64,000 nt of DNA from contig NZ_CP036261.1 in NCBI RefSeq assembly GCF_007741475.1, forward strand, positions 4,899,798 through 4,963,797. Reading direction: 5' to 3'. Under the pieces are notes generated by a model. It ran no database searches. It saw only the letters and a program-made list of their open reading frames with translations, and was not told where the DNA came from. This document shows, piece by piece, positions 9,496-64,000 of this stretch. The DNA comes from Rosistilla ulvae (GTDB lineage: Bacteria; Planctomycetota; Planctomycetia; Pirellulales; Pirellulaceae). How positions within the stretch are numbered: the stretch's first letter is position 1; the number at the start of each line of letters is the position of its first letter. The position numbers and the translations under genes are program-made.

Positions 9496-10002
9496 TTAGT
9501 TTGATTGACGCAAGTCGAGTTCCAAGATCGCAACGTCCAATTCGCGGTCGAACTTGTCTCCGACACCATGCATGATACCAACATCGCGGAACCCAAACCT
9601 GTGATGCAACGCGAGACTGGCTTGATTGGAGGCTTCGACTTTCGACAGCAGCACGCGGTGTCCGATCCGATGGGCTCGGTCGATCAGCGCGGCAAACAGT
9701 GCTTTCCCGACGCCCTGGCCGCGAAAAGGCTCACCGATCCAGACCGACACTTCGCTGGTGCGGTGGTATCCGCCGGCGGTCAGCGACCAGGGAGAAAGCG
9801 AGGCCCAGCCCATCAACGCCGCCGCCGGGTCTTCCGCTGCCAAGACGGGAAACGCGTCGGCGGTGTGCAGTTGCCACCACGCTTGCTGTTGCGCGGGCGA
9901 CAGCGGATCCAATTTGAAGGTGTTGACGCCGGTAAGGATTTCGTGATTCAAAATCTCGAAGATGGCATCCAAATCCGATTGGACCGCATCGCGAATGAGC
10001 AT
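9496..10002 (-). CDS. GNAT family N-acetyltransferase (phosphinothricin acetyltransferase-like)
   Basis: The 168-residue product starts MLIRDAVQSDLDAIFEILN, the standard GNAT opening. It carries the acetyl-CoA pyrophosphate loop in EPFRGQGVGKALFAAL and the downstream SNQASLALHHRFGFRDVG segment. The Pat/PPT branch has the same TFKLDPLSP and EVSVWI layout, so the substrate may be a small amine or amino-acid analogue. A TTG at 10032 would add ten residues; the ATG is preferred. The hairpin at 10027-10053 sits immediately upstream. Confidence 0.85.
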   Translation of the reverse strand: MLIRDAVQSDLDAIFEILNHEILTGVNTFKLDPLSPAQQQAWWQLHTADAFPVLAAEDPAAALMGWASLSPWSLTAGGYHRTSEVSVWIGEPFRGQGVGKALFAALIDRAHRIGHRVLLSKVEASNQASLALHHRFGFRDVGIMHGVGDKFDRELDVAILELDLRQSN

Positions 10003-10026
10003 GGTGAGCTTGCCGTGAAAACCTCC

Positions 10027-10053
10027 GAACAACGAAACTGCAGTTCGTTGTTC
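10027..10053. terminator. Intergenic hairpin between DUF1559 gene and GNAT gene
   Basis: The arms GAACAACGAA and TTCGTTGTTC pair perfectly over ten bases around a 7-base loop. It lies just after the stop of the DUF1559 gene in the transcribed direction. There is no long T tract, so intrinsic termination is possible but not certain. Confidence 0.5.
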
Positions 10054-10061
10054 GTCTCAAA

Positions 10062-11681
10062 TTAAAACGGCTCGACCACTTCGAGACCACCGCGAGTCAG
10101 CAATTTGTACCACAGCACGGGATCGATTTCCAAAGCCACAAATCGGACCGATCCATCGAGCATTGCAACGTGAAAGCCGCCGGGATGATGGCCTCCCAAA
10201 CCGCCAAGCGGATCGTTGGCGTCGTAGGTCCAATCCTCTGGGGCGGTCCAATCGACAGCCAACTCAGGCGAAGTCTCCACAAACATCACGGTGTTGCTGG
10301 TTCCATCGATGATGTCGCGGAAGCGGAGCGGATTATCGGACAACATCGACAGCCCTTTGCCCAGCGGGACTTGGTAGGCTGTTTTGCCAGGAACCTGAGG
10401 GCCGCTAGGGCAAGCAAACAAGGCGGGCATTCGCTCGGCCAAGGGGAGATTGTGCGGACTGTTCCATGGCTCGTCGAGCCGGAATTGCGAATACAATTCG
10501 TTCTGTTCCAGATACGGCAGCAACGCCACGCGCCAGCTGAGCAGCGGTTTCCCCTGTTTGTCGACGATGTTCGAAGGCAGCTTTTTATGCGTGTCGTGAT
10601 AATTGTGAACCGCTAACGCAAGCTGCTTCAGATTGTTTGAACAGGACATTCGCCGGGCCGCTTCGCGAGCCGCTTGGACCGCGGGCAGCAGCAGCCCGAC
10701 CAGCATGCCAGCCGATGCGACGTCGACCTGAATGTCGGAGGTGTTGATCACGATACTGCGGCCCTTGGCTTTGGGGCGGATCATGTCGAACAGCGTGTTG
10801 GTCAGGCGGACACCATAAGCTCGCATCGAATCGGCCACCGGGCCCTCTTCATTCAACAGTTGTGGAATCGATTGCAGTAGCGTATCGCGACCGTATAGAC
10901 GCGTCCGCTCGATCACCAATTCCATCTCTTCGGCCGAAACATCGTCGCTGGCGTTGAGTGTCATGTCGCCGGCGAAACCTGTTTCAGCTGCATAACGCAG
11001 TTCGATCGAATCGAGCAGCTCGGGCAATCGGCTCAAATCTTGCAGCTCTTCGGGTGCTTGCAGCAACGCCTGATTCACAAATCCCGACAAGACCGGCCGG
11101 ATCGGTTCGACCACGATCAGCGCCTGAGCCTGTCCGTTGTCGACGGTCTGGCTGACCAGATGCCCCAGCGGGCCGCCGGTGATCCGATCCGACAACATCT
11201 GCGTGACGAAATATTCGGTACCAAAGATCAATTGCGTTGGACTGATTTGATGCAGGACGGCGTTGGGGGGCGAGTTGGGGATCGTATAAAAAGTCTTTCC
11301 ATCGACGTCGCGTTTGTTCTCGCGGTCGATCACATTCGGATTCAGGCTTTCGATCGCGATCGGTTTGTCGAGCGTCGCCACGACACCAAACTCAGGACCG
11401 CCAGGGCCCGGCATGCCAATTACAAGACGAACCGTCAGTACATCGATCGGGTCGATCCCGACGTAGTGTATGCCGGCCGCCGATGCGACTTCGATCGGTG
11501 CCAACCGCATCGCGGGATCTTGCAGGATCGCTCGCGGATGGATCTGGATCATCGCGATCGCTTCGCCTGGAATGAACTCTTTGGACATCCGGCCATCGCT
11601 GGCGGGTTGTGCGACGGCGATTGAACCGAGGCCGGATAGCAAACAAAATTGAAAGAAGATCGAAAACGCAGCACGATTCAT
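10062..11681 (-). CDS. DUF1559 domain protein with a large N-terminal domain
   Basis: From the ATG at 11681 this is a 539-residue secreted protein with a signal peptide (FFQFCLLSGLGSIAVA). About 300 residues of unrecognised sequence follow. Then a pilin-like helix, LVGLLLPAVQAAREAARR, and the DUF1559 block (SCSNNLKQLALAVHNYHDTHKKLPSN; FRDIIDGTSNTVMFVE; GGFHVAMLDGSVRF) appear. Ordinary planctomycete DUF1559 proteins start with a type IV prepilin leader directly before that helix; here the helix is internal. DUF1559 is typical of planctomycetes and verrucomicrobia and has no settled function. It is downstream of the 809-residue lipoprotein gene on the same strand. Confidence 0.85.
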   Translation of the reverse strand: MNRAAFSIFFQFCLLSGLGSIAVAQPASDGRMSKEFIPGEAIAMIQIHPRAILQDPAMRLAPIEVASAAGIHYVGIDPIDVLTVRLVIGMPGPGGPEFGVVATLDKPIAIESLNPNVIDRENKRDVDGKTFYTIPNSPPNAVLHQISPTQLIFGTEYFVTQMLSDRITGGPLGHLVSQTVDNGQAQALIVVEPIRPVLSGFVNQALLQAPEELQDLSRLPELLDSIELRYAAETGFAGDMTLNASDDVSAEEMELVIERTRLYGRDTLLQSIPQLLNEEGPVADSMRAYGVRLTNTLFDMIRPKAKGRSIVINTSDIQVDVASAGMLVGLLLPAVQAAREAARRMSCSNNLKQLALAVHNYHDTHKKLPSNIVDKQGKPLLSWRVALLPYLEQNELYSQFRLDEPWNSPHNLPLAERMPALFACPSGPQVPGKTAYQVPLGKGLSMLSDNPLRFRDIIDGTSNTVMFVETSPELAVDWTAPEDWTYDANDPLGGLGGHHPGGFHVAMLDGSVRFVALEIDPVLWYKLLTRGGLEVVEPF

Positions 11682-30381: not shown

Positions 30382-31698
30382 CTAAGGAACGACATCTCCC
30401 AGCACCAGGATCTGCCCAACACGGATGTTGGTCCCTTGGTACTTTGGTTGCTTCAGTTCGGTCTCGGGATCCTTCAACCGAAACGCAACACTCTGCCGAT
30501 CGGGCTGTTCCGAATCGACTTCAACCGTCACGGTGTGAACTTCCGCCGGGTCCAACCCACCAGCAACGGTCAGCGTAGCGATCCGATGGTAGGTGCAGTA
30601 GCTGTCGAATCGCGGCCGCGGTTTAGGCTGCTTCTTGCCGTCGACGGTGATGATGACTTGGCCGCCATCGGGCCCCAGTAGATCGTACAGTTTGGCGGTC
30701 GATCCACGGAACTTGAATGTCAATTTGCTGCCAGGTTGGGTCGCTTCGAACAAGGTTCCCATGCGATTGCCAAATCGCTTGGCCAGCGTAGCATCGGCGG
30801 GCAATTGCTCCCATTGGGGCGAGAGCATTTCCGCAGTGATCGGGACCATTTTCGCAGCTTGCCAATGATCTTCGACAAATGGTGTCTTCAACTTGGCGGC
30901 GTGGTCGATCGGTGCCGACGTCTCGCCGATCAGGCGAACCGCGTCGGCGACCACATCAGCGTAAATCTGATGCCCCTCGTCCAACGGATGGACACCGTCG
31001 CTAGAGAACCGCACAACGCCCGGCTCGGTTGGCTCGGCCGACTTGTAAATCAGCTTGCCCGCCTGCTGCAGTTCGACAACTTTCATCGCAAAGTTGATCG
31101 ATGGGATCCCGTAGTGATCGGCCAACATCTCCATTGCCGAAGCTGCACGTGGGCAAAGTCCCTTTTCCAGATCGCCTTCATAACCGACGCGGTACGTGTA
31201 GACAAAACAGATGTCGGTGCGGGGATTATCGGCCCAGGTCTGACGCACGATTCCCTCCATCGCTTTCCAGATCTGTTCGGGGGCCGCACCACCATCGTTG
31301 ACAGCAAATTCGACGAACAACAGGTCGGGCTTGTGTTGTAGCGCATCGCGACCGACGCGGAACACCCCAAGATCGCTTCCCGTTCCGCCAATCGCAGCGT
31401 GAATCTCTTCGACCTTCGCCTCGGGGAATTCGTCGGCGAACCATTGTCGCGTCTTCACACGCCATCCCGCCGCGGCGGTAATGGAACCGCCAAGGTAGCC
31501 GATTTTTACCGGCTTCCCTTCGCGCAACTTGGCCAACACATTACCCAACCCATCGCGTGGGCGAACCAATTCCGCGGTCACCGCCGCGTATTCGGGCTGT
31601 TCCGCCGCGGCGGATGGCATCGCCGACAGCAGCGTCGACAGACAGACCGCCAACGCGGTGAATCGGTGGATTGAAGTTATCGATTTCGCAAAGCTCAT
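30382..31698 (-). CDS. Secreted SGNH/GDSL-type hydrolase
   Basis: This 438-residue protein begins with a signal peptide ([21 protein letters not shown]). It has an SGNH-like core: block [16 protein letters not shown] with the serine, the asparagine block [10 protein letters not shown], and the catalytic pair in [17 protein letters not shown]. The last 150 residues form a beta-rich domain ([23 protein letters not shown]) like the extra module of some carbohydrate esterases. The substrate is likely an acylated glycan. It follows the beta-helix gene 19 bases away on the same strand, so the pair is probably one operon. Confidence 0.85.
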
Positions 31699-31717
31699 GA
31701 TGTTCCTTTGGAGGTGC

Positions 31718-34021
31718 TTATTTTACAGGTAGGGTGTGGCGATAGTTGTCTTGAAAGAGTCCGATTTTGTCAAACGGAATTTCTTCAAACGATGACAAGG
31801 CTTCGGTTAAACGAGCGTCCTTCAGCCGGGTGAACGATCCGTCCGACAATTCGCTGCCACCGACCTGCACCGGATTTTCGGTGCTTCCGGCGATGTTGGT
31901 GAAACCTTGGATATCCTTCGTCGATGCGATCCCTTTGGCGGCACCGGTGGTATTAACCGCCAAGTTGTCGGCGATATCCAGTTTGTCCAACAACTTCATC
32001 ACGCCGCCGCTAAAACTGCCGACCTGTTTCGAGCAATCGACAAACACGTTGCGGAGAATCGCATTGTGCAGCGGCTGGCGAGGGGAATCGTCCATGATCA
32101 CCGCCAGACTTGGATAGCGATCGCTCCACGGCGGATTGCGATAATTCATCGCTTCAGCTTTCTCTTCCAGATTCCAACCGGCATACTTCGGGTTGTTCCA
32201 CTGCTTCCAAGTCATGCCGCGCGAATCGAGATGCAATCCGATCGGGCAATCGATCACGAGATTATTGACCACGCGATTATCGCGGCCGCCGCCGATCATG
32301 ATCGCTCGACCAGCGCGAACAAAGACGTTCCCTTCGATCGTGTCGCCGCTGTCGCAATCGTCCAGATAGACTCCCATCGTGTTGACGTGCTTCGAATCGC
32401 CACCACCCAGGTCGTGGATGTAGTTGTGTCGCAGGACATTCCCTTGGCTGGTCCAGTCGCGGCCGGTGTAAAACGCCCCCGAATCGCCCGTCTCCATCAC
32501 CACGCGATAGATCTCGTTGCGTTCCATCAAATGCTCGTTGCCACCGTACAAGATCGCGTTATGCGGGGCGTCATGAATCAAGTTATTTCGAACGATCTGT
32601 CCGCATCCCTTCACGCTGATCCCCGCCGCATAGCTGCGTTGAAATTTGCCGTAGTCATGGATGTGGCTGTTGACCACCAAGTTCTTGGCTGGCGTGAGCG
32701 TCTTGCGATCGCCACCGCGGACCGAGATCCCCGCTGTCCCCAGATTGTACAGATCGCAGGATCGGATCGTGTTTTCGGTTCCGTTGATCGAGATGCCACC
32801 ACGCGACACGTTGGCGACCGTGCACCCGGCGAATTCAACCGCGGTTGTCTCTTTCAAAGAGATCCCGTCGGCGATGCCATACTCAAACCGCAAGCCTTCG
32901 ATCTTGATGTGGTGTGCGTTTTCCATGCGGACCAACGATTGGGGCAGCGTCGCCAACACGATCGATGACGATGACGCCGTCTCCGCCGGATAGTAGTACA
33001 ACTGGCGACCCTTGCGATCCAAATACCATTCGCCCGGGGCGTCCAACTCCTCTAAGACGTTGAAGGCGAAGAAGCGGCGTTTCGATCCGCCCCAGGTGCC
33101 GGCCATGATTCCATAGTTGTGCGGTGCCGCCAGTCGGATCACTTGTTTTTCCGCATCGTACGCGCCGATACGAATCACTTCGTCGGACCAGTCGTGCGTC
33201 CAGAACCCCAACAGCCAAACGCCTTCGTCCAGGTTCCAGCGCGTCGGCCGTGGGTCCCTAAATTCAAAAGCCCCCGGTCGCGCTTTACGCCGCGCCGGAT
33301 CCTCCGAATCGGGATCGGCCAACCCCGAATCGATCGCCTTGGAAAAATCTGCCCAGCCCTCGTTTTCGGCGTCCAAATTGGGCCAACGGGCGAGCGTCAT
33401 CGGCTGTTCATCGACATACAACCACGGTCCGCCAGGCGTTCCGCGAAACGACGTTTTCCATTGAGAGATCTCTTTAGGAAACATCGACGTTAAATCGGCG
33501 ACGCGCACCTTATCGCGGACACTCTCGTCCAAACGTTCCCGAATCTCGGGATCCGACACCGCGACAAAACTGTCCGAAGGGATCGTCAGCCCACCGCTGA
33601 TCAGTGCGGTTCCGGGCTGGATCGCGCGATAGACGACCGGTGCGGCGGCGCTGCCACTGTCCTCGGCGGTCAATTTAAACGAATGCTCGATCCGATAGGT
33701 CCCTGGCCCGACCAGAACGTTCACTGCTTGGTCGGGTTTCAGTTGTCCCGATTTCCGCGCTGCACGAATCCGGTCGCGAGCTTCGGTAAGCGATTTAAAC
33801 GGCTTCGCCTGACTGCCGTTGCCTCCGGGCTGTGCATTGGCGGCGACATGTAGATCGATCGCCCACCCTTGCGCCGGGGAGAACAGCAGCGCGACCCAGC
33901 CGAACATCAGACCGAGGGCCCAACGCCGCGTCGTATCCCCAACAAATGGGCAATCGACGAGAAGAGAGGCAGCAAAAAGATAACTTGATTTTTTTGAAAA
34001 CTTCCGAGTTGCTAAAAACAT
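31718..34021 (-). CDS. Secreted right-handed beta-helix protein (pectate-lyase-like)
   Basis: From the ATG at 34021 the product is 767 residues with a signal region ending near SPAQGWA. It has a DUF1565-like start ([30 protein letters not shown]) and then a long series of parallel beta-helix rungs ([38 protein letters not shown] and similar). Such folds occur in polysaccharide lyases and glycan epimerases. The catalytic site is not evident, so the substrate is unknown. The SGNH esterase lies 19 bases downstream, a common esterase/lyase pairing for one polysaccharide. An earlier in-frame start at 34162 is less likely. Confidence 0.8.
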
Positions 34022-34678
34022 CTTGTGCTTGGTGAGAGGAATGGAAAGTTGGGGGTATTTTGAAGCGATTTGCAGGAACGCACCGCTAGCTGTCGGCAGG
34101 AACACTTTTGGGGACCCCATCTCGGGACGCCAAGAATTCGCAAACGGTATCGTTCGCCCCAATGGTGGTGCGGAAAATTGCAGCGGCCGTTTTCGCCATC
34201 AGCCAGCTCAAGCCAACCTCTACTGCAATGCGTGAGAAATCGCTCGGGATTCGAACGAAAACGCAGCAGCCGACAGGGCGTTCCGGCAAGTTACCTATCA
34301 TAACACGATGCCCTCGGATCGCCCCACGGCTGGCGCTAAAACGGCGACGATTTACCGTTAGAGGGATCTTAGGTATTGAACGAGTCCATAGAATTGCCGC
34401 GACCAGGCTCGTTGCAACGCTTGCTATCGTCGGGGTGGATCGATGACAGGCTTGAACCTTTTTGCGGTTCTTTACGTCTCTGAATGGAACAGGCATTCAT
34501 GCGTCCCCCCCAACCGACCACGTCGTTGCCGCTTGGCTACCGCGCTCCGACAGCGACCGATGCGCAAGACTTTGCTCGACCGCTATAATTCGGTATGAAA
34601 GACGACCTGTATTGAACAGGCGATCGTGCGACCGGACCTGCAATTCGTCACCGCCCTCCACCCAGATGAGCCTTCCGC
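34022..34678. other. Intergenic divergent region, nothing recognised
   Basis: This 657-base gap separates the minus-strand beta-helix gene from the plus-strand kinase gene. Small open frames on both strands (such as 34108-34446) show no domains and no clear ribosome binding site. No repeat or hairpin shared with the rest of the window was found. Confidence 0.5.
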
Positions 34679-43076: not shown

Positions 43077-43188
43077 CTTGTCGGTTTAATCAGCCGTTTG
43101 GGCGTTAGCCCCGGTTCCGCTGCCACTAAACCGGGGCTAACGCCCAAACGGCTAATGCAAGGAAGCGCGTTGTGACTAAACCGACAAG
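43077..43188. mobile_element. 112-bp palindromic MITE-like element, family 1 copy A
   Basis: The element has terminal inverted repeats CTTGTCGGTTTA and its complement, and internal perfect 25-base arms (43092-43116 and 43129-43153), so it can fold into one long hairpin. It is flanked by GCTAGCA on both sides (43069-43075 and 43190-43196), a likely 7-bp target duplication. A second copy of the same 112-base length lies at 60347-60458. It encodes nothing and would need a transposase in trans. It interrupts a family-2 repeat. Confidence 0.8.
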
Positions 43189-56704: not shown

Positions 56705-59374
56705 CTAATCCTTTCGCAGCGCGACCAACCAATCTTCGTTGGCGTCCTGGGGAGCAGTTCCCAGGGCGACGTTCGATCCACCTTGGACCGACTTGATCGT
56801 TCCGGCTTGCAAGTCACCGCCAGCGCGTGGGTTGAACCACATCACTTGAAAGTTGCCTTCGACGCCCGACAGATCCAAATCGGAAGTCCCGCCGTTTGCC
56901 AGGTAGACCAGATAGGTATCGCCCGGTTTGGCGAAACAGAATTTGGCGATTCCGTTGTCGTTGTTGCCGACCAATGCGTCCGCGTTTTGCATCTCCCAAA
57001 ACGGAATCCCATGGTCGTGGAAGAACTCGATAGCGATCCGGCAGTAGTCCCAGCTTTGGTCTCGGCTGCGCCAGTCTTCGCACACGATATCGTTTTCATC
57101 GAACTGGTACCCGAAATAATATTCGTTCCCGGCACCGCCAGCCATTAAGGTTCCCCACAGCGTTTGTTTGCGGACCTCGTGCTGGGTGTGAGCCATCTTG
57201 CCGGTGCGGTCGTGGCCATCGAAACCGCGGTACCCGAGATCGGGAGCCTGGGCGTGAGCGGCAGTCCCCGATTCGTCAAATGCAACGACCCACGGTTTGT
57301 CCGCCGCCGCCGATTTGCGAACCCACTTGAGCGTGTCGGCGTGAGTCGCTTTCAAGCTGCTGTTCTGCAGCGACAAACCGGTCAGCTTCGACCGCTCTCC
57401 CAGCAACGCTCCGTAGATTTTGTCGTGCTGGCCAGGATAGGTGTGCAACACGATGTTGTGATCGTACGGATCGAGATCGGCCAGGTAGTCGATCATCGCC
57501 ACCTGCTGAGCGGTGCTCTGCGTGCTCTCCTCACCGATGTTCCAGTTCAACGCTAGATTGTGCCCGAAGCGAGCGACCATTTCGCGGCAATACAGTTTTC
57601 GCTGGATGCCCAAATTTCCGTCGTCCAAGCTCTCGGGAACAAACCCGGCCTTTCCTTTTCCCGTCCAGTGGTCGTCGTTTTCGGTCTCTTGCAACTTGAA
57701 GTGCAAATACATACCGCGAGCGGTGCCGTGATCGAAGACGATTCCCCACTGATCCAGTTTGCTGCAATCGTAATGCAGCTTGTCGTCGCGTTGAATGAAC
57801 GGCCAGACGTTGTCGCCATCGCCACCGGCGTTGTAGGTCAGGAACGAAAACGCGTTGCAGCCTTTGCCCGAAAGATAGTTGATAGCGCCGATCAGCCCGC
57901 GTCCCTTCTGGTCACCCCAAGTCGGATCGCCCGGACGCCAATCGTTGAGATGCGGCGACCAGGTTTTCAGCGGTGCCCGCTTGGCTTTGCCGGCGATCGT
58001 GTTGTCGAAGTCGGCGTAGGCCAACAGCGTTTCGGGCGCGTCGGCTCCCGCTTTCAAGAAGTACTTTTTGGATCCGGCAAACTGCAAGTAGTGCTTGCCG
58101 ACGTATTGCAGGCGTCCCTGAGCTCGCAGGTCGCGTCCCTGTTTGTTGCTGGCGGCAATCTCGAAACTTCCCGAAGCACCATTAAACGGAGCCAGCGGCT
58201 TCGCTTTGGCTCCCTTGTCCAATGCTGCCAGTTCGCCTTGGTCGAATGAAACTAGATAGTTCCACTTGCCGGTTCGGTCGGCAGCAAAATGAGCTCGCCA
58301 AACGTTGCCATCTTCCGCCGACGAATTCGCAGCGTTCCCATCGGCAGCAAAATAGCCCGGCACGGTGTAGCTGTCCCCGTCGGCATGCGTGAACTCGACC
58401 GACATCCGGTAATCGGTAAACGGGTTCGGCGTGTTGTCTTTTTCGTGAGCGTAGGGGCCGCTCAGATCGAGCGTCAGCTTGTGCCATTGCTTCGGTTCGC
58501 CGCTGACCTTAACGCTGCTGTCGCCGTCAGCGCCGCGAGGCATCTGCAGCGGAGCGGTGCTCGACGGCTTGGTGGGACTTGTTCTCTTGACAACCGCTGG
58601 CGCTGCCACTGCGGCGACGAAGGGGAACGGTTTGGGCATCGTTCCCGCATGGACCGCCGACGACGGCCCAACACCCGCGGGACGCGTGAACTCTCGATCG
58701 CGAGTGATCAACCACTTGTCGAATTCGAATCCATCTTCGCGCATCGAAAACTGGATCACATGCTCCCCCGGCTTATCGATATCGAGGAAGATCTTGTGAG
58801 GTTCGCCGCAGTGCTGGGCGTCGGTCCGCTGCTTGCTCTCCCAACGCCATGACCTCTTCCCATCGCACCACTGCAACCGCTGACCGCTCTCAGGCCACTG
58901 ACCATCGATCCCGACATGCAATCCGTTGTCTTCAGTCCCCGTGGAATGGGCGCGTACCCAAACGTAATACCTGCCCGGATTGGCGATCTGAACTTTGTAA
59001 TGCAGCACCGCCATCGCGGCTGCTTGGGGCGAGAAGTTCTCTCCCTTGATCAGTTTGTCGCCGTGGTCGCGACGCGTGTCGGGCAGGATCTCGAGATACG
59101 CACCGCCGCTGGCACCGGCAACGTGAGGCGGATCGCCATCGGGGCCGGCCGACGGCGTCTGATCTGAATGCGTGAGATAAAAGCCGCGGACATCATCGGA
59201 GGTCTGCTGGAAGAAGTGCTCCGCTTCGACAGCCAACATCCCATCGGCTTCGGCAAAAACGACCGTATCGTCGACGATAGGCGACTTGGCAAACGACCGT
59301 TCGCACCTCGCAATGGTGACCAAAATCAGAATCGCAGTGAGCGCGGACCAACGGAACGCCGCAAGACTTTTCAT
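56705..59374 (-). CDS. Secreted DUF5060-type protein with collagen-binding-like C-terminus
   Basis: This 889-residue protein has a signal peptide ([20 protein letters not shown]), a carbohydrate-binding-like N-terminal domain ([32 protein letters not shown]), a DUF5060 immunoglobulin-like domain near residue 290-400 ([41 protein letters not shown]), then a GH-A-like barrel ([17 protein letters not shown]) and a putative collagen-binding C-terminus ([25 protein letters not shown]). DUF5060 proteins are secreted glycoside-hydrolase-related proteins; the substrate is unknown. It stands alone between the giant surface gene and a repeat region. Confidence 0.8.
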
Positions 59375-60346: not shown

Positions 60347-60458
60347 CCTGTCGATTTAGTCAGCCGTTTGGGCGTTAGCCCCGGTTCAAGCACCGCTAAA
60401 CCGGGGCTAACGCCCAAACGGCTAATTGAAGGAAACTCGTTGTGACTAAACCGACAAG
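60347..60458. mobile_element. 112-bp palindromic MITE-like element, family 1 copy B
   Basis: Same length and nearly the same sequence as 43077-43188, including the inner arms and the right-end inverted repeat CTAAACCGACAAG; the left end has a few substitutions. It is flanked by TCGTCAA at 60337-60343 and 60459-60465, a likely 7-bp direct repeat with three extra bases at the left. It lies between the dinB and deoR genes. Confidence 0.75.
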
Positions 60459-60726
60459 TCGTCAAGACTTTCGGTTTACGGCGGATGCGTCACCTCTCGA
60501 AACTCTCGACGGGGGCCGCTAACTCAGGTCCGCGACGGGGCGAGTTCGGCTGCTTCTTCTCTCATAGGCGTCAAATTTGCCACAGCCTGTCGCAAATTGT
60601 GAAACCTTGGCGATGAACTCGTTTCGTTCGCGATTCGGGCCTGCAAGAAGTCGAGAACGATAGTACGCTATGATAGCAAAACAGGTAAATTAGGCGGATT
60701 CTCTGGTCGGCGGTGATTGATTTCTT

Positions 60727-60737
60727 TCACGTGGTGA
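60727..60737. promoter_or_regulatory. Short palindrome upstream of the deoR-BMC operon
   Basis: TCACGTGGTGA is an 11-base inverted repeat in the probable promoter region, about 55 bases before the DeoR TTG start. The regulator could control its own operon through it. Only position and symmetry support this. Confidence 0.35.
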
Positions 60738-60791
60738 CCATAATCTATCACGCGCAACGAGTTTTCTCGCAGATACCGGAAGAAATCGATC

Positions 60792-61574
60792 TTGTCCAAC
60801 GGCTCTCCCACGGAAGCACGGCGTGAAAATCTGCGGCGGCAGATTCAAGCGACCGGATTTGCGTCGCTGTTGGAATTGGCGGCGGAACTGCAGGTCAGCG
60901 AATCGACGATTCGCCGCGACTTGGACTATTTGGAGGAACTTGGCGAGGCGAGACGAACTCACGGCGGCGTGTTTTGGACCGGGTCACCGACCAACATGCG
61001 ACTGTTCGAAGGTCGCCGAGACAACCGTTGGGAACAGAAGCGAGCGATTGCCCAGGCCGCTAGCCAATTGATCGGCGACAGCGACACGATCATCCTCGAC
61101 GGTGGCAGCACGACTTACGAACTAGCCCGTCTGCTGGTCGGACGACCGCTGCAAGTCGTGACGAATTCGCTGCCCGTTGCCAACCTGTTTGCCAGCAGCG
61201 ACAAGTCGGATTTGGTCCTCGTCGGCGGTTACGTTCACAACCGCACCGGCGTCACTTTGGGGCCGTTCGCAAATACGATGTTAGAAAGTTTGAATGTCCG
61301 CCACGCGGTGATTAGTATCGCCGGGGCGGATGAGCGAGGTTACTACAACAGCAATATGCTTCTTGTCGGAACGGAGAAGGAGATGTTGCGCAGCGCCGAC
61401 GAAACGATCATCGTCGCCGACAGCACCAAATTTGGCCACGCGAGCCTTTCGCGAACCTGCCAATTGGGCGATGTCGCGACGGTCGTGACCGACGACGAAC
61501 TATCGCCCCAGTGGCAACAACGACTGACCGACGCCGGCGTCCAACTGATCATCGCCCCGGCGCTTCATCCATAA
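60792..61574 (+). CDS. DeoR-family transcriptional regulator of the BMC operon
   Basis: This 260-residue regulator starts at a TTG with GGAAGA eight bases upstream. It has a DeoR-type winged helix (SLLELAAELQVSESTIRRDLDYLEE) and the sugar-phosphate-sensing ISOCOT-type domain (DTIILDGGSTTYELARLL; VLVGGYVHNRTGVTLGP; IVADSTKFGHASL). DeoR regulators are usually repressors released by a phosphorylated sugar, which fits BMC loci for fucose or rhamnose breakdown in planctomycetes. It is the first gene of the run continuing with pduL and BMC shell genes, 57 bases upstream of pduL. Confidence 0.88.
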   Translation: MSNGSPTEARRENLRRQIQATGFASLLELAAELQVSESTIRRDLDYLEELGEARRTHGGVFWTGSPTNMRLFEGRRDNRWEQKRAIAQAASQLIGDSDTIILDGGSTTYELARLLVGRPLQVVTNSLPVANLFASSDKSDLVLVGGYVHNRTGVTLGPFANTMLESLNVRHAVISIAGADERGYYNSNMLLVGTEKEMLRSADETIIVADSTKFGHASLSRTCQLGDVATVVTDDELSPQWQQRLTDAGVQLIIAPALHP

Positions 61575-61631
61575 ATCAAGACGACCGTCCCCCACAATCC
61601 GCAGCCCCCACCGACCTGCAACCTACTGCCC

Positions 61632-62351
61632 ATGACACAATCTTTAGACAACGCACAGATCGAAGCCTTGGTTCGCCGCGCCGTTCGCGCGATCGTCAAC
61701 AACGATTCGACATCGGCCGCTCAACCTCCCGGTTGGGTCGATGGCAAACCGAACCTTCGCGTCAGCATCTCGGCGCGGCACGTTCATCTGTCGGATGAAC
61801 ATGTCGAAACGCTGTTTGGCCCAGGCGCAACGCTGACGCCTATGAAGGATCTGTACCAAGACGGCTTCTTCGCCGCGGAACAGACTGTCATGATCATCGG
61901 CCCCAAGAAGCGGATGCTGCCAAGCGTTCGCGTGCTGGGCCCGACGCGTCCCTTCAGCCAAGTCGAACTGGCGTTCACCGATTCGATTTCGCTGGGGTTG
62001 GACATTCCGATCCGTCACAGCGGCGACATCGAAGGCACTCCCGGTTGCGTACTTGTTGGTCCCGCTGGCACGATCCAGTTGGACAAAGGCGTGATCCGCG
62101 CCGCCCGACACGTTCATATGAATCAAAGCGACGCCCAGTATTTTGGCGTCAAAAAGGGTGACTTCATGGATCTGAAGATCACCAGCCCACAGTGCACGAT
62201 CACGATGAGCGACGTGTTGGTTCGCGCCGACGATACCAGCAAGCTGGAAGTTCACATCGACACCGATGAAGGAAACGCTTGCAACCTCGACAGCGCCACC
62301 AAGATCGAATTGATCCCCAGCGGCGGCGGATGTGGCTGCAAGGCTCACTAA
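61632..62351 (+). CDS. pduL: Phosphate acyltransferase PduL (BMC-type)
   Basis: PduL converts acyl-CoA plus phosphate to acyl phosphate and recycles CoA inside microcompartments. The 239-residue product has two PduL repeats with metal-binding His residues at H50 and H52 (ISARHVHLSDEH) and H160 and H162 (RAARHVHMNQSD). Its first 24 residues (NAQIEALVRRAVRAIVNN) form an amphipathic helix like the encapsulation peptides of BMC-targeted enzymes, separated by a Ser/Ala/Pro linker. Position next to shell genes and a kinase gene supports an acetyl- or propionyl-phosphate step inside the compartment. Confidence 0.92.
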   Translation: MTQSLDNAQIEALVRRAVRAIVNNDSTSAAQPPGWVDGKPNLRVSISARHVHLSDEHVETLFGPGATLTPMKDLYQDGFFAAEQTVMIIGPKKRMLPSVRVLGPTRPFSQVELAFTDSISLGLDIPIRHSGDIEGTPGCVLVGPAGTIQLDKGVIRAARHVHMNQSDAQYFGVKKGDFMDLKITSPQCTITMSDVLVRADDTSKLEVHIDTDEGNACNLDSATKIELIPSGGGCGCKAH

Positions 62352-62455
62352 ATTCCGTCCACCCGGTTCGGCGGCACCGCCGTTCCGACAACACCCGATT
62401 TCAACTTTCGAATTTTCGATTTCAAATTCCCTCCCTCCCTCCAGAGACCAATTAG

Positions 62456-62740
62456 ATGGCAAAGATTAACGAAGCGCTCGGTATGATCGAGACGAAGGGT
62501 TTTATCACCATGATGGAAGCGACCGACGCGATGTTGAAATCCGCCAACGTCACTTTCCTCGGTTGGGACAAAGTCGGCAGCGGCTTGGTTACCGCGTTTG
62601 TCACCGGCGATGTTGCCGCAGTGAAAGCCGCAACCGATGCGGGTGCCGCAGCGGGCGGTCGCGTGGGTGAAGTGGTTGCCGTTCAGGTGATCCCACGTCC
62701 ACACGACGACTTGGGCAAGGTTCTCAAGGTTGGTGGCTGA
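62456..62740 (+). CDS. BMC-H microcompartment shell protein 1
   Basis: This 94-residue protein is a canonical BMC-H hexamer subunit: [29 protein letters not shown], then the pore-loop region [21 protein letters not shown] and the C-terminal [21 protein letters not shown]. Six subunits make a flat hexagonal tile with a central pore lined by the GSG loop. It lies 105 bases downstream of pduL. It is the main facet-type shell candidate of the locus. Confidence 0.95.
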
Positions 62741-62830
62741 GCCGTTCGTTTGGGCGACCTCGCCTGACGAGCGTTGCGTCGACCGTTAAGGTCTGCCGCA
62801 CAACTACGCTAACCACCGGACAAGCTTCCC

Positions 62831-63277
62831 ATGGCAAAAAAGAAAACGACTTCGACTCGCACTCCCGCGACCGAATCCAAACCGGCTGGCGGCACTGCTG
62901 CCAAGCAGCCCGCTCGACGAACGACGGCTGCGACGACAAGCACCGCCGTAACCAAAACTGCATCCGCAACCGCTCCTTCACAAAAAACTTTCTTGGAAAA
63001 TAAGATGAATCAAGCACTTGGCCTTGTTGAAACAAAGGGTTTGTTGGCCCTGATCGAAGCTACCGACGCGATGGCCAAAGCGGCAAACGTCGAAATCACC
63101 AAACGCATCGACATCGGTGGTGCGTTCTGCACGACCGTCGTCACCGGCGATGTCGGCAGCGTTCGCGCAGCCGTCGAAGCGGGTGCTGCCGCGGCAGCTC
63201 AAGTCGGCGAATTGGTCGGCAGCCACGTGATCGCTCGCCCCAGCGAAGGCTTGGTCGAAGCGTTCATCAACAAGTAG
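62831..63277 (+). CDS. BMC-H shell protein 2 with a 55-residue N-terminal extension
   Basis: The last 92 residues are a BMC-H domain (MNQALGLVETKGLLALIEATDAM; pore region DIGGAFCTTVVTGDV; VGELVGSHVIARPSEGLVEAF). The first 55 residues are a low-complexity Lys/Thr/Ala-rich extension that a normal BMC-H lacks. The pore sequence GGAF differs from the GSG of shell protein 1, so the two tiles may have different permeability. The extension could face the lumen or cytosol and bind a partner. It starts 90 bases after shell protein 1 and precedes the kinase gene by 84 bases. Confidence 0.92.
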   Translation: MAKKKTTSTRTPATESKPAGGTAAKQPARRTTAATTSTAVTKTASATAPSQKTFLENKMNQALGLVETKGLLALIEATDAMAKAANVEITKRIDIGGAFCTTVVTGDVGSVRAAVEAGAAAAAQVGELVGSHVIARPSEGLVEAFINK

Positions 63278-63361
63278 TCGACCGGCGATCGCTGCCGCGA
63301 CCCGATGACTCCCACCCGTTCCTAACAACCAGTACCCACGACCACGGACGACCCTGTTGCC

Positions 63362-64000
63362 ATGAAGGTTTTAGTCGCAAATCTCGGATCTACGAGTTTC
63401 AAGTATCAGTTGATCGAAATGTCCGATGAAACCACGCTCGCTCGCGGCGCGGTCGATCGGATCGGTTCGCCCGAATCGTCCTGCACGGTCGAAATCGGCG
63501 ACTGGAAAGATCAACGCACGATGTCGGTTCCGCACCACGGAGTCGCTGTCGAAGCCTGCTTGGCACAGTTGACCGATCCCGAACACGGCTGCATCAAATC
63601 GGCCGATGAAGTGGATGCGATTGGGTTCAAGGCGGTACATGGCGGACGGTTCAGCGGCGTCTATCGGATCGACGAAGAAGTATTGGCAGCGATGGAAGAG
63701 ATGCGGGACGTCGCTCCGGCGCACAACCCGCCTTACGTTGCCGCCATGCGACAACTGGCTTTGTCCGGCGGAAACATTCCGTTGATCGCAGCCTTTGAAA
63801 CCGATTTCCACCAAACGACTCCCGACGCCCAGCGTTATTACGCGATCCCAAAACAATGGTCGGATGATTTCCACATCCGTCGCTTTGGGTTCCACGGCAA
63901 CAGTCATCGATACATCGCCATGCGAACGGCGGAATTGATTCCTGGTGCCAGCCGCGTGATCTCGTGTCACTTGGGTGGCAGTAGCAGTTTGTGTGCAATC
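63362..64000 (+). CDS. Acetate kinase-like protein, divergent, 3' end beyond window
   Basis: The visible 213 residues start MKVLVANLGSTSFKYQLIE and show the acetate/propionate kinase fold: VHGG, APAHNPP, FETDFHQTTP, FHGNSH and CHLGGSSSL. Compared with the well-studied Methanosarcina enzyme, Asn7, His123 and His180 positions are kept, but Arg91 appears as Lys (FKAVHGG) and Asp148 as Glu (FETDFHQ), and the usual HLGNG is HLGGS. With PduL it would make ATP and an organic acid from acyl phosphate. The frame is open at base 64000. Confidence 0.85.
   Translation, partial: MKVLVANLGSTSFKYQLIEMSDETTLARGAVDRIGSPESSCTVEIGDWKDQRTMSVPHHGVAVEACLAQLTDPEHGCIKSADEVDAIGFKAVHGGRFSGVYRIDEEVLAAMEEMRDVAPAHNPPYVAAMRQLALSGGNIPLIAAFETDFHQTTPDAQRYYAIPKQWSDDFHIRRFGFHGNSHRYIAMRTAELIPGASRVISCHLGGSSSLCAI

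Follow-up and report, generated by a model that had tools for sequence, protein, structure and literature searches.

A very probable PVM-type metabolosome operon in Rosistilla ulvae and a predicted RpiB-fold protein encoded within it

Background

Operons for bacterial microcompartments (BMCs) of the PVM type (Planctomycetes and Verrucomicrobia) are a characterised and common kind, and the type has been defined in PMC4207490, PMC8217296 and PMC11958385. The cluster of P. limnophila (formerly Planctomyces limnophilus), a species for which genetic tools are available, consists according to PMC11958385 of 13 genes, pvmABDEGHIJKLMNO, with PvmA, of the DeoR family, acting as regulator in a rhamnose-responsive circuit. 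Two further microcompartment types also employ an aldolase: SPU (sugar phosphate utilisation) loci combine an aldolase yielding an aldehyde from a sugar phosphate with PduL and RpiB, and GRM5 loci contain a class II aldolase that serves the fucose/rhamnose route. In the present study, a stretch of 64,000 nucleotides from Rosistilla ulvae (G000:C1:4899798-4963797, in a one-contig genome of 7,475,804 bases; hereafter the window) was analysed together with a second stretch, L003, that spans the right window edge. The edge cuts an operon that is one more complete example of the PVM kind. We consider it very probable that this is a complete PVM-type metabolosome operon serving a 6-deoxyketose-1-phosphate aldolase route through lactaldehyde inside a shell. 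What the analysis adds is the predicted RpiB fold of an uncharacterised protein of the operon, and the question of which isomerase supplies the aldolase.

A twelve-gene operon of the PVM type

The operon consists of 12 genes, all on the same strand, seven of which lie wholly past the window edge (Table 1); the intergenic gaps from deoR through the kinase gene measure 57-104 bases. The original prediction, made from the window alone, had placed a DeoR regulator, PduL, two BMC-H proteins and an acetate kinase next to each other on one strand, and open frames and Pfam matches agree with this arrangement. It had further expected the remaining genes to the right, where three BMC-P genes and genes for an aldehyde dehydrogenase, a class II aldolase and a lactate/malate dehydrogenase are indeed present within 5.8 kb past the edge. 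The first BMC-P gene and the aldehyde dehydrogenase gene, on whose presence within about 15 kb the prediction was made to depend, start 647 and 1,067 bases past it.

Table 1. Features of the locus. Plain numbers are window positions; a window position is the L003 position plus 60202.
Feature	Position	Strand	Evidence or context
DeoR-family regulator (pvmA-like), TTG start	60792..61574	+	Pfam PF00455 (DeoRC) 5.5e-45, PF08220 1.1e-13
PduL phosphotransacylase, N-terminal encapsulation-peptide-like stretch, Phe79 at rPduL Gln77 position	61632..62351	+	PF06130 (PTAC) 1.3e-71
BMC-H shell protein 1	62456..62740	+	PF00936 1.3e-27
BMC-H shell protein 2, possible basic N-terminal tail	62831..63277	+	PF00936 8.4e-25
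Acetate/propionate-family kinase, window part	63362..64000 (edge-cut; whole gene L003:3160-4341)	+	PF00871 1.5e-101 (taken on the full-length protein from L003), TIGR00016 347.4 bits vs cut-off 293.4
BMC-P1	L003:4445-4756	+	PF03319 1.7e-29
Acylating aldehyde dehydrogenase	L003:4865-6313	+	NF011927 612.6 bits, cut-off 403
BMC-P2	L003:6371-6634	+	PF03319 2.7e-19
Uncharacterised protein, 201 residues	L003:6659-7264	+	between BMC-P2 and BMC-P3
BMC-P3	L003:7287-7571	+	PF03319 7.4e-17
Class II aldolase (PVM signature enzyme)	L003:7573-8496	+	PF00596 4.2e-49
Lactate/malate dehydrogenase	L003:8599-9534	+	PF00056 4.7e-33, PF02866 1.2e-29
IlvD/Edd-family dehydratase, behind operon, 5.9 kb past window edge	L003:9740-11512	+	
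Candidate operator/promoter zone TTTCTTTCA, degenerate TGA.AGAAA half + TCTATCA	about 60714..60753	.	upstream of deoR

Shell-protein genes are confined to this locus: in the whole genome (7.48 Mb), PF00936 has two matches and PF03319 three at E<=0.001, all in the operon, and BMC-P genes thus exceed BMC-H genes by 3 to 2. PduL passes its NCBIfam cut-off (NF011652, 247.3 vs 209 bits). In an alignment to 5cuo, its Phe79 takes the place of rPduL Gln77; rPduL His48 corresponds to position 16 of the 5cuo chain, and therefore Gln77 to position 45, where the chain has Gln. According to PMC4784909, this Gln is replaced by Tyr or Phe in most PduLs of pvm loci, the aromatic residue being linked to lactyl-CoA. 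The aldehyde dehydrogenase would be of the PduP type, as we interpret family NF011927.

The locus is like that of P. limnophila in that DeoR comes first and that PduL, BMC-H, acetate kinase, BMC-P, aldehyde dehydrogenase, class II aldolase and lactate/malate dehydrogenase are all encoded. It is unlike it in having 12 genes instead of the 13 listed for P. limnophila, in the dehydratase gene behind the operon, and in that the RhaA and FucI profiles find no match in this genome. The identification as a PVM-type operon, which the original prediction had proposed, is based on gene content, order, families and the PduL residue, and it is borne out by the class II aldolase, the PduP-type aldehyde dehydrogenase, the aromatic residue of PduL, the kinase, the lactate/malate dehydrogenase, the leading position of DeoR, the two BMC-H and three BMC-P proteins, and the gene order in relatives.

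Proposed pathway

In the proposed scheme, whose reactions, shell assembly and regulation are modelled on the characterised P. limnophila locus, DeoR would repress the 11 genes downstream of it until the sugar or an early intermediate relieves this repression, and the two BMC-H and three BMC-P proteins would form the shell. The phosphate ester, L-fuculose-1-phosphate or L-rhamnulose-1-phosphate, could come from a rhamnulokinase-like enzyme encoded elsewhere in the genome; inside the shell, the class II aldolase would split this ester into dihydroxyacetone phosphate and L-lactaldehyde. The acylating dehydrogenase would then oxidise lactaldehyde with NAD to the coenzyme A (CoA) ester lactyl-CoA, PduL would convert this to lactyl-phosphate and free the CoA, and the kinase would produce lactate and ATP, while the lactate/malate-family dehydrogenase would regenerate NAD. 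The shell would retain lactaldehyde, with NAD and CoA being recycled within it. A helix-like pattern of the kind found in encapsulation peptides occurs on PduL, the aldehyde dehydrogenase, the C-terminus of the aldolase and the uncharacterised protein.

Several observations weigh against this reading. The aldolase and the lactate/malate dehydrogenase score below every NCBIfam cut-off, the top model of the aldolase being 3-oxo-tetronate 4-phosphate decarboxylase (138.8 bits vs cut-off 250), and the sequences therefore do not determine the substrate. The profiles PF06134 (RhaA), PF02952 (Fucose_iso_C, the C-domain of FucI), TIGR02635 and TIGR02629 (RhaI) find no match in this genome, which leaves a gap in the textbook route to the aldolase substrate. 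The hydrophobic moment of the putative encapsulation peptides is not significant against shuffled sequences (p 0.11-0.24), and the C-terminus of the lactate/malate dehydrogenase, taken as control, gives a similar value (p 0.19). Finally, the P. limnophila locus was compared through its published description, and gene order was judged on the loci of relatives. The role in processing lactaldehyde from fucose and rhamnose, also put forward originally, would fit the PVM kind by analogy, the substrate being carried over from P. limnophila to a genome where the RhaA and FucI profiles have no match.

Conservation of the operon in relatives

At E<=0.001, BMC-P1 matches 125 of the 146 genomes of the order; in five of these (G023, G047, G056, G074 and G111) the best match is weak or partial (above 1e-20), and setting them aside leaves 120. 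Gene order was compared over 11 genes, excluding the uncharacterised protein, in two sets of loci that have eight genomes in common: 57 loci fetched from genomes of the order, and a set of 80 named loci that rank highest among 419 confirmed relatives. All 11 genes are found on one strand and in the same order in 43 of the 57 loci. The remaining 14 are one divergent locus (L100), one cut by a contig end (L094), one that is cut (L076), nine without a match to the lactate/malate dehydrogenase (two of them also without DeoR) and two without a BMC-P2 match. Among the named loci 52 of 80 are complete, or 42 of the 48 with enough flanking sequence; the other six of these 48 comprise four that lack only the lactate/malate dehydrogenase match and two that have all 11 genes plus an extra match. 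By BMC-P similarity, the closest of these best 80 loci are in records titled Rhodopirellula, Stieleria, Roseimaritima, Roseiconus, Rubripirellula and similar.

Two of the deviating loci have features of their own. L100 (G111:C65:13900-33800) contains BMC-H, three BMC-P-like matches and an aldehyde dehydrogenase of 42% identity, with no match to the PduL, aldolase and kinase of the operon, and is possibly another BMC type. In L076 (G046:C13), an aldolase match at 9956-11043 stands at a contig end and follows BMC-P1 directly, in the place that the aldehyde dehydrogenase takes in relatives; this may be a rearranged locus or an assembly join.

A predicted RpiB-fold protein between BMC-P2 and BMC-P3

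The uncharacterised protein of R. ulvae has no Pfam match, PF02502 included. Orthologs were chosen by their position between BMC-P2 and BMC-P3, and 19 of the 30 of fitting length were aligned with the R. ulvae copy. In the resulting 20 rows the N-terminus is conserved and helix-like, a TP motif is invariant, and a C-terminal region aligns as well. Eleven of them match PF02502 (LacAB_rpiB) at E<=1, with a best value of 7.8e-07, and three match PF15953 (PDU_like; best E 0.0093), which we take to be the PduM family. Among the orthologs from named loci, five of seven scanned match PF02502, all under its cut-off. A structure model of the L284 ortholog (pLDDT 85.9, pTM 0.62, from a 23-row alignment) was compared with the PDB using Foldseek, and all 34 matches at E<=0.001 are ribose-5-phosphate or galactose-6-phosphate isomerases. 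A profile search against PDB sequences is led by designed TIM barrels (E 0.0015), with RpiB following only at E 0.04; the predicted structure and the Pfam matches of individual members are therefore the basis of the RpiB reading. The fold was assigned on the L284 ortholog, the R. ulvae copy being shorter with its 201 residues.

The examined column is presumably that of the catalytic Cys of RpiB. In this column, which was set from a weak alignment to RpiB chains (E 0.07-0.1), none of the 23 and 20 rows (43 rows, 40 genomes) has Cys; mostly Thr, and otherwise Ser, Ala or Val, is found instead. Three genomes occur in both alignments (L048/L248, L066/L261 and L067/L257). The orthologs likewise lack the combination of the catalytic Cys and its Gly-rich loop that is typical of the RpiB/LacAB family. 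As the modelled fold matches isomerases while the column never holds Cys, the most likely reading is an RpiB-fold protein of the organelle that is non-catalytic or altered. The BMC-P2/BMC-P3 spacing is below 400 bases in 9 of the 52 loci with a usable gap, and the gene must therefore be short or absent there.

An RpiB-like protein in such a locus also bears on the type of microcompartment. RpiB is part of SPU loci, which share with the present operon an aldolase that releases an aldehyde from a sugar phosphate, and PduL; GRM5 shares the class II aldolase used in the fucose/rhamnose route. That the operon belongs to SPU or GRM5 instead of PVM is nevertheless extremely improbable, and this alternative is already disfavoured. 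The aldolase of SPU is of the DeoC type, whereas that found here is of class II, and none of the 43 aligned rows of the RpiB-fold protein has the catalytic Cys. The 12 operon proteins show no match to PF01791 (DeoC-type aldolase) or PF02502 (RpiB), and neither a DeoC-type aldolase nor a glycyl radical enzyme, as would distinguish GRM5, was found among these 12 and seven scanned neighbours, a search that covered the locus only. In addition, the gene order matches that of the PVM loci of relatives.

With the PVM assignment retained, a likeness to PduM, a structural protein of the Pdu microcompartment, may be considered. PduM has an N-terminal targeting helix according to PMC12108088, the PVM protein has a putative one, and PF15953 is weakly matched by three of the 20 rows; the PVM protein differs in its RpiB-like domain, and the PF15953 match is too weak for a claim of homology. 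We tentatively propose, although we hold this for somewhat less probable than its opposite, that a repurposed RpiB with a cargo-targeting helix is encapsulated as a lumen scaffold or sugar-phosphate-binding part, as a relic of an ancestry that PVM and SPU organelles share, and that most carriers use a yet-unrecognised isomerase to make the aldolase substrate. An RpiB-like protein in PVM loci was not found among the literature titles and abstract openings listed; the founding PVM paper may describe it.

Origin of the aldolase substrate

Three FGGY kinases are encoded in the genome. One passes the xylulokinase cut-off (593.5 vs 380 bits), the second is rhamnulokinase-like (TIGR02627, 475.2 bits, under the 528-bit cut-off), and the third, behind a GlpD-like frame, by eye resembles a glycerol kinase. 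From the pair of a rhamnose or fucose isomerase and a kinase, which lies outside the definition of PVM loci, only the kinase-like gene was found. It matches 142 of the 146 genomes of the order at E<=1e-60, and RhaA matches 49 of them at E<=0.001. The 125 BMC-P carriers divide into 35 with a RhaA (PF06134) match and 90 without, 87 of the latter having a kinase match; in this tally some genomes are incomplete, G142 was placed as BMC-P-negative by elimination, and FucI was checked in the R. ulvae genome only. The entry step of fucose and rhamnose is thus not explained by RhaA in many of these bacteria, 87 of the 125 carriers having the kinase without it.

In six relatives (G022, G039, G041, G067, G123 and G135) the kinase lies within 12 kb of a PVM BMC-P gene, and in one of them, G123, a RhaA match is found 1.7 kb away from the kinase, with a transporter-like frame (by eye) between them. 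These arrangements therefore support L-rhamnulose-1-phosphate as one probable substrate of the aldolase route. The neighbourhood of the kinase was further examined by clustering the frames of 41 loci (40 relatives and R. ulvae), 39 of which have a kinase match. Among the families that recur, a PAPS reductase-domain protein occurs in 22 loci, an Rrf2 regulator in 21 and a Na+/H+ exchanger in 10, besides smaller groups. A Gfo/Idh/MocA oxidoreductase follows the rhamnulokinase-like gene in 19 of the 41 loci, including that of R. ulvae (L043:7391-8419 beside L043:8501-9991), and in 16 it is within 2.5 kb of the kinase match. No isomerase was found beside the kinase in the six groups checked by Pfam.

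A further uncharacterised protein, of 335-432 residues, recurs behind PVM operons in other families of the order, in 15 of 58 clustered loci (e.g. L065:14400-15698, 432 residues). This 432-residue protein has a match in 104 of the 146 genomes; its R. ulvae homolog (59%; G000:C1:4614938-4615921, L203:9421-10428) lies about 350 kb from the operon and adjoins a frame that by eye resembles a PfkB sugar kinase. It has no Pfam match and marginal NCBIfam matches to class I aldolase-like families, and since its model has a pLDDT of 37 (4-row alignment), no reading is drawn from the structure.

The dehydratase gene behind the operon would open another route, in which an IlvD/Edd dehydratase makes a 2-keto-3-deoxy sugar acid that the class II aldolase splits into pyruvate and lactaldehyde, making an isomerase unnecessary. 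This is consistent with its start 205 bases after the lactate/malate dehydrogenase gene, the last of the operon, on the same strand, and with the lack of matches to the classical RhaA, FucI and RhaI isomerase profiles in the genome. Also, its best PDB relatives are 5oyn (an IlvD/Edd-family dehydratase, 832.6 bits) and 7m3k (galactonate dehydratase, 786.4 bits), against 242 bits for dihydroxy-acid dehydratases of the 6nte kind, and two distant copies in the genome (36% at C1:2193091, 31% at C1:7366468) could cover amino-acid synthesis. However, both NCBIfam subfamilies that it passes are named dihydroxy-acid dehydratase, and the genome retains the rhamnulokinase-like kinase. No dehydratase match was found in the loci of relatives, neither in the 57 nor in the 80 (137 loci), of which 44 and 50 (94) show at least 2.3 kb beyond the lactate/malate dehydrogenase gene. 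The one close ortholog in the 57 genomes searched (63%, G053) is on a different contig from the PVM locus of G053, with neighbours that by eye look unrelated. Given its absence from all fetched loci of relatives, the dehydratase was rejected as a part of the operon and is treated as a neighbour, and we regard a dehydratase route as very unlikely.

Glycan-related neighbours, upstream region and BMC-H2 start

The original prediction had also mentioned many secreted glycan proteins in the window; few were found among the 11 scanned of its 34 non-operon frames, and three proteins lend the idea weak support. At 30382-34120, a GDSL hydrolase is encoded beside a beta-helix protein with a match of 25.2 bits to the GH141 insertion domain GH141_M (cut-off 27), and at 56705-59374, upstream of deoR, a protein has DUF5060, GH115_C and collagen-binding domains. 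Judged by these domains, the three are possible plant or algal glycan enzymes, and a local glycan supply of the operon from window proteins is weakly supported. Growth on rhamnose, fucose and fucoidan is reported in PMC12628686 for Crateriforma sp. HD03, a planctomycete that colonises algae.

In the 200 bases that precede deoR, TCTnTCA or TCTTTCn occurs in 38 of 65 loci, R. ulvae included, compared with a mean of 8.2 and a maximum of 15 in 200 first-order shuffles, the motif having been picked from shared words of the same set of loci. On the reverse strand it occurs in 40 of 65, as expected of an inverted repeat, and in a coding control in 0 of 64. We infer that DeoR may bind at this candidate motif.

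A hairpin with arms GGGCGTTAGCCCCGG is present in two copies in the window, at 43100-43145 and 60370-60415, one of them upstream of the deoR region. The arm has four matches in the window, against none expected from shuffles, and a single arm is also found in L043 (567-581) and in L268. The repeat resembles a dispersed element of the REP kind.

The start of BMC-H2 may instead be an ATG inside the frame, at 63005, where most readable relatives begin. The preceding 62831-63004 would be a tail of 58 residues in open frame before this Met, rich in Lys, Thr and Ala, with 11 Lys/Arg and 2 acidic residues. Starts were compared in 58 loci, eight of which have no readable motif, leaving 50 including that of R. 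ulvae. Seven of the 50 (R. ulvae, L055, L066, L070, L079, L082 and L095) have an ATG in frame 20 or more residues before the common start, and the extensions look basic in all except L095, thus in R. ulvae and five relatives. Such candidate tails could give the shell an extra charged patch.

Conclusions

If the proposal made here for the protein between BMC-P2 and BMC-P3 is true, a dead RpiB with a targeting helix would be a testable identity for a PVM gene of unknown function. The organelle itself would give planctomycetes safe use of fucose and rhamnose.

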